A stretch of 64,000 bases of DNA from Luscinia megarhynchos. Lineage: Eukaryota > Chordata > Aves > Passeriformes > Turdidae. The notes under the pieces were generated by a model. It searched no databases. It saw only the letters and a list, made by a program, of their open reading frames with translations, and was not told where the DNA came from. The position numbers and the translations under genes are program-made. Shown here piece by piece: positions 5,880 to 57,700 of the stretch (within the stretch, counting starts at the first letter, position 1; every line of letters starts with the position of its first letter). Location: positions 5,781,508 through 5,845,507 of the forward strand of contig CM067584.1 in NCBI GenBank assembly GCA_034336665.1, in the 5' to 3' direction.

Positions 5880-6187
5880 TCAGGGCGTGTAGGCGGGCGG
5901 CGGCTGGAACTGATTGACCACCTCGTAGTCGGGGCCGTAGGGCTCGGCCTCCTCCATCTCGGAGAGCAGCTCCAGCGCCTGCTCCTCCTCCTCGCTGGGG
6001 TAGTGCCGCAGCAGGTTGGCCGCCGTGGCCAGGATGGAGGCGCCGCCCGCGCCCGCCACCAGGTAGAAGCTGACGGCGAAGGTGACGAACACCTGCGAGC
6101 CGTGGTACTTCTTGTGCTGCTGCTGCTGCGCCAGGAGCAGCTCCGAGGCCCAGTAACAGAAGCCGATCACCGTGGCGCACTGCAGCA
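5880..6187 (-). CDS. TMEM127: TMEM127 last coding exon
   Basis: The exon starts after an AG acceptor at 6189-6188 and ends at TGA 5882-5880. It encodes [20 protein letters not shown], the polar [15 protein letters not shown] loop, the last membrane segment and the acidic tail ending [11 protein letters not shown], near identical to the vertebrate protein. It is 308 bases long, phase 2 to stop, with no disruption. Confidence 0.95.
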
Positions 6188-9100
6188 CTGGGAACGTGGG
6201 AAATGGGGAGAAAAAATGGGTTAGATTGGGGGGAAATGGGGAAAAACACAGTAAAAAATGGGTTAGATTGGGGGGAAATGGGGAGAAACACAGAAAAAAA
6301 GGTTAGATTGGGGGAAATGGGGAAAAACACAGAAAAATGGGTTAGATTGGGGAAAAATGGGGAGAAACACATTAAAAATGGGTTAAAGTGGGGGAAATGG
6401 GGGAAAAACACAGAAAAAATGGGTTAGATTAGGGGAAATGGGGGAAAAAATACAGAAAAATGGGTTAGATTGGGGAAATGGGGACAAACACAGAAAAAAA
6501 TGGGTTAGATTGGGGGAAATGGGGAAAACACAGAGAAATGGGTTAGATTGGGGAAATGGGGAAAAACACAGAAAAAATGGGTTAGATTGGGGGAAATACA
6601 CAGAAAAAATGTGGGTTAGATTGGGGGAAATGGGAAAAACACGGAAAATGGGTTGGGATTGGGGGAAATGGGAAAAACACAGAAAAATGGGTTAGATTGG
6701 GGAAATGGGGAAAAATACAGAAAAAATGGGTTAGATTGGGGGAAAATGGGGAGAAACACAGAAAAAATGGGTTGGATTGGGGTGGGTTTGGGGTCTGGGG
6801 TCCCCAGTAACAGAAGCCGATCACCGTGGCGCACTGCAGCACTGGGATCGTGGGAAATGGGGAGAAACACAGAAAAAATGGGTTAGATTGGGGGGAAATG
6901 GGGAAAACACAGAAAAAAATGGTTTAGATTGGCGAAATGGGGGAAAAACACAGAAAAAATGGGTTAGATTGGGGAAATGGGGAAAAACACAGAAAAAAAT
7001 GGGTTAGATTGGGGGAAATGGGGAAAAACACAGAAAAAAATGGGCTGGATTGGGGGAAATGGGAAAACACAGAAAAATGCGGTTAGATTGGGGAAATGGG
7101 GAAAACACAGAAAAATGGGTTAGATTGGGGTGGGTTTGGGTCTGGGGTCCCCAGTAACAGAAGCCGATCACCGTGGCGCACTGCAGCACTGGGAACGTGG
7201 GAAATGGGGGAGAAAAAATGGGTTAGATTGGGGGAAATGGGGAAAATACAGAAAAAAAATGGGTTAGATTGGGGAAAATGGGGAAAAAACACAGAAAAAT
7301 TAGGGTTAGATTGAAAATGGGAGAAAACACATTAAAATGGGTTAAAGTGGGGGAAATAGGAAAACACAGAAAAATGGGTTAGATTGGGGGAACATGGGGA
7401 AAAACACATTAAAAATGGGTTAGATTGGGGGAAATGGGAAAACACAGAAAAATGGGTTAGATTGGGGGAAATGGGGAGAAGCACAGACAAATGGGTTAGA
7501 ATGGGGGAACATGGGGAAAACACATTAAAATGGGTTAGATTGGGGAAATGGGGAAAAACAGAGAAAAATGATGAGTTAGATTGGGGGGAAAATGGGGGAA
7601 AAACACAGAAAAAAAACGGGTTATATTGGGGGAAAAATGGGGGAGAAACACAGAAAAAATGGGTTGGATTGGGGGAAAATGGGGAAAAACACAGAAAAAA
7701 TGGGTTGGATTGGGGGAAAAAAGGGGAAAAACACAGAAAAAAATGGGTTGGATTGGGGAAAGCGGGGAAAACACAGAAAAAATGGGTTAGATTGGGGAAA
7801 TGGGGAAAAACACAGAAAAAATGGGTTAGATTGAAACACACAGAGTGTAGAGGGAGAAACACAGAAAAATGGGGTTAGATTGGGGAAATGGGGAAAAACA
7901 CATTAAAAATGGGTTAGATTGGGGGAAATGGGGAAAAACACAGAAAAAATGGGTTAGATTGGGGGAAATGGGGAAAAACACAGAAAAATGGGTTAGATTG
8001 GGGAACATGGGGAAAAACACAGAAAAATGGGTTAGATTGGGGAAATGAGGAAAAACACATTAAAAATGGGTTAGATTGGGGGAAATGGGGAGAAACACAG
8101 AAAAAATGGGTTAGATTGGGGGAAATGGGGAAAACCACATTAAAAATGGGTTAGATTGGGAAATGGGGAAAACCACATTAAAAAATGGGTTAGATTGGGG
8201 GAAATGGGGGAAAAACACAAAAAAAATGGGTTAAATTGGGGGAAATGGGGAAAAACACAGGAAAAAAATGGGTTAGATTGTGGGAAAATGGGGAAAAACA
8301 CAGAAAAATGGGTTAGATTGGGGGAAAAATGGGGAAAAACACAGAAAAAATGGGTTAGATTGGGGGAAATAGGGAAAAAATGGGTTAGATTGGGGAAATG
8401 GGGAAAACCACATTAAAAATGGGTTAGATTGGGGGAACATGGGAAAATGGGGAAAAACACATTAAAATGGGTTAGATTGGGGAAATGGGGAAAAACACAG
8501 AAAAAAATGGGTTAGACTGGGAGGAAATGGGGAAAAAAATGGGTTAGATTGGGGGAAATGGGGAAAACCACATTAAAAATGGGTTAGATTAGAATGGGGA
8601 AAACCACATTAAAAATGGGTTAGATTGGGGGAAATGGGGAAAAACACAGAAAAAATGGGTTAAATTGGGGGAAAATGGGAAAAACACAGAAAAAATGGGT
8701 TAAATTGGGGGTAAATACACAGAAAAAATGGGTTAGATTGTGGGGAAACACACAGAAAAAAGTGGTTACATTGGGGTGGGTTTGGGGTCTGGGGTCCCCA
8801 GTAACAGAAGCCGATCACCGTGGCGCACTGCAGCACTGGGAACATGGGAAATGGGGAAAAACACAGAAAAAGATGGGTTAGATTGGGGAAATGGGGAGAA
8901 AACACAGAAAAATGGGTTATGAATTGGGGGAAATGGGAAAAACACAGAAAAATGGGTTAGATTGGGGGAAATGGGGAAAAACACAGAAAAATGGGTTAGA
9001 TTGGGGGGAAATGGGGAAAAAACACAGAAAAAATGGGTTAGATTGGGGGGAAATGGGGAAAAACACAGAAAAACGGGTTAGATTGGGGGAAAATGGGGAA

Positions 9101-54700: not shown

Positions 54701-57700
54701 CATAGCACCAGCGCCCCCAGGAACTGCCTGGGCCAAAAAAAAACCCAAAAACATCCCAAAATAATCCAAAATACATCCCAAAAATATCCCAAACACAACA
54801 CCAGCGCCCCCAGGAACTGCCTGGGCCCCAAAAACATCCCAAAATAACCCAAAATACATCCCAAAATAATCCAAAAATATCCAAAATAAACCAAAAACCA
54901 GCACCAGCGCCCCCAGGAACTGCCTGGGCCCAAAAATAACCCAAAATAATCCAAAATACATCCCAAAAATATCCCAAACACAGCACCAGCGCCCCCAGGA
55001 ACTGCCTGGGCCCCAAAAAACATCCCAAAAACACCCAAAATAACCCAAAATAATCCAAAATAAACCAAAAACCAGCACCAGCGCCCCCAGGAACTGCCTG
55101 GGCCAAAAAATAACCCAAAATAACCCAAAATAACCCAAAATACATCCCAAAATATCCCAAAACCAGTACCAGCGCCCCCAGGAACTGCCTGGGCCAAAAT
55201 ACATCCCAAAATAACCCAAAATAACACAAAATAACCCCCCAAAAAAAGACAGAAATACCCCCAAAAAAAGCCAAAACCAGCCCCAAAATACATCAAAATA
55301 ACCCAAAAAAACCCAAAATGACCCAAAATAAGCCAAAATAACCCAAAATAAACCCAAAATAACCCCCCCAAAAAAAAGAGACAAAAATACCCCAAAATAA
55401 GCCACAACCAGCCCCAAAATACATCAAAATACATCAAAGTAAACCAAAGTAACCCAAAAAACCCCGAAATAATCCAAAATAATCCAAAACCCCCAAAATA
55501 ACCCAAAAAACCCCTAAATAACCCAAATTTAACCAAAAATAACCAAAATTTCCCCCAAAATCCCTCAAATCCCCCCAAAATCCCCCAAAACTCTCCCAAT
55601 CATCCCCAAATTCCCCAAAATTGCCCCAAATCATCCCAAAATCCCCAATTATCCCAAAATCCCCCAAATTATCCCCAAAAATGCCTCAAAATTGTCCAAA
55701 TTCTCCCCAAATTATCCCAAAAATCCCCCAAACCCTCCCAAAATCCCTCCCAAACTGTCCCAAAAATCCCCCAAATCATCCCAAAATCCCCAATTATCCC
55801 CAAAATTGCCCCTAAATCATCCCAAAAATCCCCCCAAATTATCCCAAAAATCCCCCTAAACTCTCCCAAAATCCCTCCCAAAATGTCCTAAAACCCCCCA
55901 AATCATCCCAAAATCTCCAATTATCCCAAAATCCCCCAAAAGTCTCCCAAAATTCCCCAAAATGTCCCAAAATCCCCTAAATCATCCCAAAATCCCTCCC
56001 AAGATGTCCCAAAATTGCCCCAAATCATCCCAAAATCCCCAATTATCCCCAAAATTGCCCCAAATCATCCCCAAAAAATGCCTCAAAATTGTCCAAAATC
56101 TCCCTAAAATCATCCCAAAAATCCCCCAAACCCTCCCAAAATCCTCTCCCAAACTGTCCCAAAATCTCCCCAAATTATCCCAAAATCCCCCCAAATCCTT
56201 CCCAGATTCCTCCAACCCCCCCAAAAATCCCCCAAAATCCCCCCGAATAATCCAAAACTCCCCAAATTTCCCCAAACTCCCCCAAAATTCCCAAATTCCC
56301 CGAATTTCCCAAAATTCCCCCCCAAAATTCTCAAATTCCCCCTAAAATTCCCACTCCCCTAAATTCCCCAAAATTCCCACCTTCCAAAATTCCCCAAATT
56401 CCAAAATTCTCCCAAAATTCCCAAATTCTCCCCAAAATTCCCAAATTCCCCCAAAATTTCCCCAAAATTCTAAAATTCCCCCAAAATTCCCCCAAAACTC
56501 CCCAAAATCCAAAATTCCCCCAAAATTCCCAAATTCCCCCCAAAACTACCCCCAAAATTCTCAAAATTCACTAAAATTTCCCTAAATTCCCCGAAAATTC
56601 CCAAATTCCCCCAAAACTCCCTAAAATTCCCCCTAAAATTCCCTCAAATTTCCCAAAAATTCCCCCAAAATTCCCCAAATTCCCCCAAAACTCCCCAAAA
56701 GTCCCCCTAAAATTCCCAAATTTCCCGACCCCCACCCCCCAAAATTCCAACCCCCCAAAAATTCCCCAAAATTTCCAAAATTCCCCAAATTCCCCCAAAA
56801 TTCCCCCAAAATTCCCCCAAATTCCCCAAAATTCCCCCAAAACTCCCCAAATTCCCCAAAATTCCCCCAAAATTCCTCCCAAAATTCCCAAATTTCTCCC
56901 CAAAATCCCCACCCCCCAAAATTCCCAAATTTCCCCAAAATCCCCAAATCCCCCAAAATTCCCAAAATTTTCCCCAAAATTCCCCCAAAATTCCCACCCC
57001 CAAATTTCCCCAAAATTCCCCCAAAATTTCCCCAAATTCCCCCAAAATTCCCCCAAAACTCCCCCAAAATTTCCCAAATTCCCTCCCAAAAATTCCCCAA
57101 AATTCCCCAAAATTCCCCAAAACTCCCAAATTTCCCCCAATATTCTAAAATTCTCCCAAAATTCCCCAAATTACCCCAAAATTCCCAAATTCCCCCCAAT
57201 AATCCCCCCAAATCCTCAGATAATCCAAAGAAATTCCCCCAAAATTCCCCAAATTCCCCAAAATTCCCAGATTCTCCCCAAAATTCCCCAAATTTCCCAA
57301 ATTCCCCCAAACCATGACGGGTGATCTCACCTGAGCGCCTGCTCCAGCCCCAGGCCCCGGAACTGGAACAGCTCCAGGTACAGCGCTCACGCTGGAGCTG
57401 AACTCGAGCTGCATGGGGACAGCGCTAGTGGATCGGGCCAAAATCCCCAAAAACCCCGGGAAATTCCACTCAAATCCGAATTCTGAAATAGCCGAAATTC
57501 CCCGCCTGAGAATAGCCGAATTCCCAAAACCCGGGAATTCACTGAATAGCCGGGGAATTCTAAAACCCGAATTTCACCCGAACTGAATTCCCAAAATAGC
57601 CGAAATTCCCGCCCCAAAATAGCCGAAATTCCCTAAAAGATCCAGAATTCTCACTAAAATATCCGAAATTCAGCCCAGATATCCGAAATTCATCTCAAAA

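Follow-up and report, generated by a model that had tools for sequence, protein, structure and literature searches.

Exon edges of TMEM127, CIAO1 and a PSD-family gene recur in neighbouring tandem arrays of a repeat-rich songbird locus

The 64,000-nucleotide stretch of Luscinia megarhynchos DNA analysed here (the window) covers positions 5781508-5845507 of contig C25 and ends 35 kb short of the end of this 5,880,519-bp contig, in a genome of 1.09 Gb. It carries the genes TMEM127 and CIAO1 together with a gene of the PSD family, and copies of the edges of their exons lie in the tandem arrays next to these exons. The gene set comprises 19 exons and 16 modelled introns, yielding 38 exon edges (33 splice junctions and 5 other exon ends). 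Exon boundaries were placed by eye using translations and splice motifs; the upstream end of the TMEM127 first coding exon is only approximate, and the set leaves out PSD exons at the far end of the window and any within a 100-N gap (32647-32746). The peptide of CIAO1 exons 1-5 matched human CIAO1 (3fm0) with an E value of 1.3e-132. Among the best 120 of its 1466 matches, the closest full-length proteins were those of Anomalospiza (93%), Vidua (92%) and Poecile (90%), and the suboscine Lepidothrix stood at 83%, so that an oscine passerine is the most likely source.

A sequence-only reading of the window had named 13 captured edges, namely 12 splice junctions and the PSD stop codon, and we found at least one extra copy at every one of them. 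Over the union of two screens, extra copies lay near 12 of the 33 splice junctions and 1 of the 5 other exon ends. The exon-only screen used the thresholds published for exon stuttering (length of at least 20, bits above 42.1) and returned 44 copies at 10 of the 38 edges, in 8 of the 16 introns and the 3' flank; one of these ten is the stop-codon edge, which falls outside the intron definition of Hron et al. 2026. In the control of this screen, with one shuffle per intron, no match of 20 bases or more was found. The junction screen, which searched junction-centred 30-mers with up to 4 edits within 3 kb, detected copies at 12 of 38 edges, compared to 19 of 1312 30-mers (1.4%) in a Markov-resampled window and 12 of 390 (3%) in exon interiors. 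The TMEM127 first-coding-exon donor, the CIAO1 exon 7 acceptor and the PSD Sec7 motif 2 donor passed the junction screen only, and the CIAO1 exon 4 donor passed the exon screen only. Tandem Repeats Finder returned 535 rows for the window.

The number of copies per edge ranged from 1 to 14 at a threshold of 68% identity; at CIAO1 exon 7 a stricter limit of at least 92% identity left 9 of 51 matches and removed the other 42, and at the CIAO1 exon 5 acceptor a distant match at 18150 (69%, without AG) was also dropped. The captured exon portion measured about 12 to 64 bases, and a few exon-only matches ended before reaching the exon border. Of the glutamic-finger donor copies that passed the exon screen, one (near 53885-53932) carried 36 exon bases and the other three carried 25. 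A fifth, diverged fragment of the TMEM127 acceptor edge was seen by eye near 9400. As the earlier reading had stated, the splice site travels with the exon edge: GT or AG was retained in 59 of 62 copies at 11 junctions, a count that excludes CIAO1 exon 7, the stop-codon array and the distant match at 18150.

The same reading had proposed that tandem duplication is repeatedly seeded at exon borders, an idea that the counts do not support, since borders carry copies less often than non-exonic DNA does: copies were found at 12 of 38 junctions, compared to 79% (9569 of 12167) of non-exonic positions. In the permutation test, named beforehand as the possible refutation, the entire exon set was rotated 5000 times round 5400-58000; 12 edges were observed whereas 28.1 ± 3.1 were expected (P(<=12) = 0.0016, P(>=12) = 0.9988). 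Inside the exons, a copy lay nearby for 1/22 positions at -60, 2/30 at -45, 5/34 at -30 and 8/38 at -15; outwards the proportion rose from 12/38 at the junction to 13/38 at +15 and 22/38 at +30, and then to 0.61-0.79 further out. Exon borders thus have copies less often than the sequence around them and more often than the interiors of exons; they mark where a repeat field thins out and are not hotspots.

An outward gradient of age within the arrays would have favoured seeding at the border. In 8 of 10 arrays, the farther a copy lay from the real edge, the lower was its identity to that edge; the mean rho across arrays was -0.27 (one-sided P 0.018, computed from rounded copy-series values), and the correlation was strongest in the PSD stop array (rho -0.88). 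However, P rose to 0.20 without copies below 0.8 identity and to 0.07 without the PSD stop array, rho was 0 in one array, and at the CIAO1 exon 5 donor the direction was reversed (+0.67), so that the gradient is weak. That exon borders are the preferred birthplace of arrays, with new units born at the exon (perhaps through transcription structure, a nucleosome edge or splice-linked R-loops) and pushed outward, would accord with the 13 edges captured in three genes and with the negative correlations, but in view of the border deficit and the fragility of the gradient we regard it as quite unlikely. Somewhat less improbable, though still unlikely, is a wider proposal in which introns are continually rebuilt: exon edges, including the stop codon, would found arrays, units would be pushed outward and replaced, and decoy splice sites would turn over on an allelic time scale at a running cost to splicing.

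The breakpoints of the copies provide a second view of array growth. Over 13 edges (including one of the adjoining gene STARD7 and excluding CIAO1 exon 7), 56 of 84 gap-free runs began at the commonest exon-side start of their array, a measure that is shifted by point changes. The shared start was found in 4 of 4 runs at the TMEM127 acceptor, 9 of 11 at the glutamic-finger acceptor, 4 of 8 at the PSD stop and 1 of 2 at the PH acceptor. For many arrays, though not for each singly, the most economical account is a single founding event whose product was then amplified; the glutamic-finger donor array contains at least two breakpoints. In a first test of microhomology at the breakpoints, which used imprecise starts, no edge was significant except the CIAO1 exon 5 donor (0.04). 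A second test gave a combined P of 0.0014 over 13 edges and was not used, as diverged copies had apparently been left unmasked (prefix matches of 8-11 bases). Visual inspection showed short matches at the glutamic-finger donor (AACCCC), at STARD7 (TGGG) and at CIAO1 exon 4 (ACACACAGG), which are leads only.

To what extent might the copied splice sites matter? We located 53 decoys by exact anchors at 10 edges, a set without the stop array and without the edges of CIAO1 exon 7 and the TMEM127 first exon; if used, 44 of them would cause a frameshift or introduce a stop, and the other 9 would insert a stretch that is in frame and open. Since the decoys lie outside the real exon, exon definition, which chooses the shortest exon, should favour the true pair and would normally ignore them. 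That the copied edges function in regulation, as alternative splice sites or as mini-exons, and are kept for it is highly improbable: the retained dinucleotides and the nine open, in-frame decoys would suit such a role, but the 44 others would break the protein. It is also conceivable that selection against decoys purges many straddling duplications and that the visible arrays are the survivors. In its favour, the junction and the +15 position are similarly depleted relative to +30 and beyond, and most of the decoys tested would be harmful if used. By contrast, the surviving copies keep their dinucleotide, which argues that decoys are not being disarmed, and the preferential amplification of existing repeats yields a similar deficit without selection (see below). 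We therefore hold purging to be possible rather than probable. With decoys at 12 of 33 junctions over about 50 kb, the locus is a natural experiment on a spliceosome facing near-perfect decoys.

The sequence-only reading had further claimed a regional process acting across genes and repeat units, and this claim is supported: in the adjoining gene STARD7 in the left flank (C25:5761508-5781507) 1 of 12 edges is captured, with 12 copies of the junction 30-mer, and repeats are dense both within the window and beside it. Repeat density was sampled in three window parts (50-77%), three flanking 10-kb pieces (53-72%), five other 8-kb pieces of the contig and one 8-kb piece of contig C1, without gene models except for STARD7. 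Elsewhere on C25, values were 29% at 1.0 Mb, 4% at 3.0 Mb, 22% at 5.0 Mb, 67% at 5.60 Mb and 56% at 5.87 Mb; the single C1 piece contained no repeat position among 319.

A second contig, C785 (39,552 bp), is colinear, in reverse orientation, with the left flank and the window's first 10.9 kb, and is possibly an unpurged second haplotype. Runs identical to C25 of up to 626 bases stand amid noisy stretches. Of the five TMEM127 extra copies, C785 matches three over 42-58 bases and the other two over only 23 and 17 bases; the copies follow the same order with similar spacing, and two units of about 39 bp that carry no exon edge differ between the contigs. The STARD7 array has 18 copies on C25 and 17 on C785. 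Some junction-bearing stretches are confined to one contig, with 68 bp on C785 and, on C25, 44 and 105 bp; a further difference of 51 bp does not include the junction. The STARD7 intron measures 2057 or 2009 bp on the two contigs of this one assembly, a difference below 10%. The idea that the exon is a fixed anchor beside an expanding intron stood in part. The captured STARD7 exon is identical at 111 of 111 bases, compared to 82% identity (gaps counted) over the aligned intron-holding stretch, but the other two exons compared between the contigs are markedly different, probably because C785 is noisy.

Such differences raise the question whether long-read or polishing errors multiplied the exon edges during assembly. 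Within the window, CIAO1 exon 6 contains a frame change at a run of G (23118-23124), the TMEM127 first coding exon (16182-16398) has no single reading frame, and both disruptions point to base-level assembly error in GC-rich exons; there are also two 100-N gaps, and over 10.9 kb the contigs differ by 238 indel events (199 of them of 1-2 bases) and at 49 alignment columns in the TMEM127 last exon. However, the copies are mutually diverged, many with common breakpoints, and the TMEM127 copies have counterparts, two of them only short, in the same order on C785. The CIAO1 gene model of another bird, Zonotrichia, has a duplicated exon 5 start, while that of Catharus reads through intron 4 without a duplicate (both are gene predictions, not DNA). 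Moreover, in chicken the structure of a single gene, PHF8, was checked in raw nanopore reads, according to the main text of Hron et al. (PMC12954441). An artefact is thus very unlikely.

Taken together, tandem copies at short range make up most of the sequence between the exons here, the arrays take in 13 exon ends, many copies of an array share one exon-side breakpoint, and the numbers of array units differ between two colinear contigs. We consider it probable that this is exon stuttering, arising by tandem duplication everywhere in the non-coding DNA of the locus while selection shields the real exons alone. The duplications, each tens to hundreds of bases long, would arise throughout the local non-coding DNA, preferentially in tracts with existing repeats. 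One that straddles an exon edge leaves an intact exon and would therefore be tolerated, whereas one within the exon would be removed by selection; once founded, a unit bearing the junction would be amplified like any other. The PSD stop codon was captured on its 3' side in the manner of a splice site, which implies that neither splicing nor splice sites are required.

In simulations, uniform neutral duplication gave a junction rate of 0.92 of the plateau. When existing repeats were favoured, without selection, the ratio of junction to plateau fell to 0.57 (rich 0.8) or 0.35 (rich 0.95), compared to the observed value of about 0.40-0.45, and the decay into the exon at rich 0.8 (0.20, 0.11, 0.07 and 0.06) resembled that observed (0.21, 0.15, 0.07 and 0.05). 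Several points weigh against general duplication bounded by selection on exons. The simulated plateau (0.35-0.55) lies below the observed one and the parameter values were set manually; what the simulation demonstrates is sufficiency, not fit. Uniform duplication from which 60% of straddling events are removed also reproduces the ratio (0.45), so that the observed value fits selection against decoys and preference for existing repeats alike. In addition, C785 is assumed to be the other haplotype, and on it the TMEM127 last exon departs from C25 at the 49 columns mentioned above and the next STARD7 exon by 16 edits in 87 bases.

The exons and arrays discussed here are collected in Table 1.

Table 1. 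Source exons and arrays containing copies of their edges (window positions unless otherwise indicated)
Feature	Position	Strand	Remarks
TMEM127 last coding exon (source of acceptor-edge copies)	5880..6187	-	Pfam TMEM127 PF20517, E 3.3e-16; acceptor ttcccag|TGCTGC
TMEM127 last-exon acceptor edge, 4 copies	6803-6853, 7150-7200, 8797-8847, 9189-9241	-	~40-bp minisatellite
TMEM127 first-coding-exon donor edge, 1 copy	15178..15206	-	84% identity, GT kept
CIAO1 coding exons 1-7	18352-18490, 20022-20170, 20437-20548, 20627-20718, 21474-21675, 23075-23154, 25027-25267	+	
CIAO1 exon 4 donor edge, 1 copy	20799..20850	+	
CIAO1 exon 5 acceptor edge, 4 copies	21032..21409	+	Copies at 21032, 21147, 21244, 21365
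CIAO1 exon 5 donor edge, 5 copies	21791..22574	+	Each up to 64 exon bases
CIAO1 exon 7 acceptor-edge array, 9 copies at >=92% identity	24508..24997	+	12 exon bases; AG in 8
PSD stop-codon end, 14 copies in 3' flank	29776..30451	-	41-bp unit near exon; TGA in 11/14
PSD last coding exon	30462..30728	-	Includes stop codon
PSD coiled-coil exon donor edge, 8 copies	31054..31555	-	GT in 6
PSD coiled-coil exon	31581..31718	-	Both edges captured
PSD coiled-coil exon acceptor edge, 7 copies	31784..32360	-	
PSD PH-domain exon	39060..39264	-	Pfam PH_9 PF15410, E 1.5e-12 (peptide joined with adjoining exon)
PSD PH exon acceptor edge, 2 copies	39378-39451, 39721-39794	-	~62 exon bases each
PSD Sec7 motif 2 donor edge, 13 copies	48565..50909	-	11 of these in 49993-50909
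PSD Sec7 motif 2 exon	50988..51046	-	Pfam Sec7 PF01369, E 4.8e-26 (peptide joined from four exons)
PSD glutamic-finger donor edge, 6 copies	53557..54009	-	
PSD glutamic-finger exon	54076..54188	-	Both edges captured
PSD glutamic-finger acceptor edge, 11 copies	54258..55199	-	
STARD7 exon with captured donor edge	Joined positions 14880-14990 of C25:5761508-5781507		At least 12 copies in ~60-bp units

The remainder of the PSD PH domain was not found on reading 31719-39059, a stretch in which the 100-N gap may hide PSD exons. Odd low-complexity words resembling TCGGCATC fill window positions 61100-61656, directly before an N gap, and are possibly low-quality consensus. In the right flank of the window (about 3650-8700 of the flanking piece), long open frames contain tandemly repeated coding-like units, among them DGTIPPKFETV and QNLQSRGSTFEEIS; they are perhaps a repetitive gene or perhaps a chance product of arrays.

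Beyond the locus itself, this analysis separates two ideas that look alike, border hotspots on the one hand and a general duplication field that meets selection at the borders on the other. It also indicates that gene models in stuttering regions can incorporate fragments of decoys, which seems to have happened in the CIAO1 model of Zonotrichia. The models of Haber and Louis 1998 and Taylor and Breden 2000 reportedly trace the birth of minisatellites to short direct repeats, with slippage or break repair taking place between them. Such a birth resembles the present case in that a local tandem duplication founds the array, and differs from it in having no specificity for exon edges. Introns are also said to be gained by tandem genomic duplication, where a duplication that includes exon sequence creates new splice sites. 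Here, by contrast, no new intron is evident, and the copies, many per edge, lie within existing introns or the 3' flank.

The closest known system is exon stuttering, or sequence stuttering, on the chicken dot chromosomes (Hron et al. 2026, PMC12954441). As defined in the main text of that article, fragments of exon edges, together with the adjacent donor or acceptor, are repeated imperfectly and in tandem along the intron next to the exon; the introns are heavily covered by simple repeats and the coding exon is intact. In its chicken data the captured exon length has a median of 36 bp (20-187) and the copy number a median of 4 (1-44), and the preference for dot chromosomes is strong, not absolute. 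Local repeat expansions are reported there in other birds "in some instances" and in gerbils as data not shown; CIAO1, TMEM127, PSD and STARD7 are not mentioned in its main text. This was the only article found under "exon stuttering" or, for birds, "sequence stuttering", in literature from which subscription journals and preprints mostly fell outside the scope.

Relative to what that text describes, the likeness is close: ten of 38 edges pass the same length and bit thresholds, copies reach the exon border and keep its GT or AG, and the clustered, imperfect direct tandem copies lie in repeat-rich introns. Differences were also apparent. The present locus belongs to a songbird and lies near the end of a 5.88-Mb contig that may or may not belong to a dot chromosome; for four oscine CIAO1 relatives the longest contig measures 5.36-5.52 Mb. 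The density is higher here, with 8 of 16 introns affected compared to 190 of 5,572 chicken dot introns, but these 16 come from a hand-modelled window chosen for the feature. The STARD7 intron difference falls under the 10% criterion applied to chicken alleles. Border depletion was tested here, and the capture of a stop codon into the 3' flank lies outside the chicken intron screen. These comparisons suggest that exon stuttering is not confined to chicken; the phenomenon is already known in kind, and the window is a dense new case of it that includes a captured stop codon.

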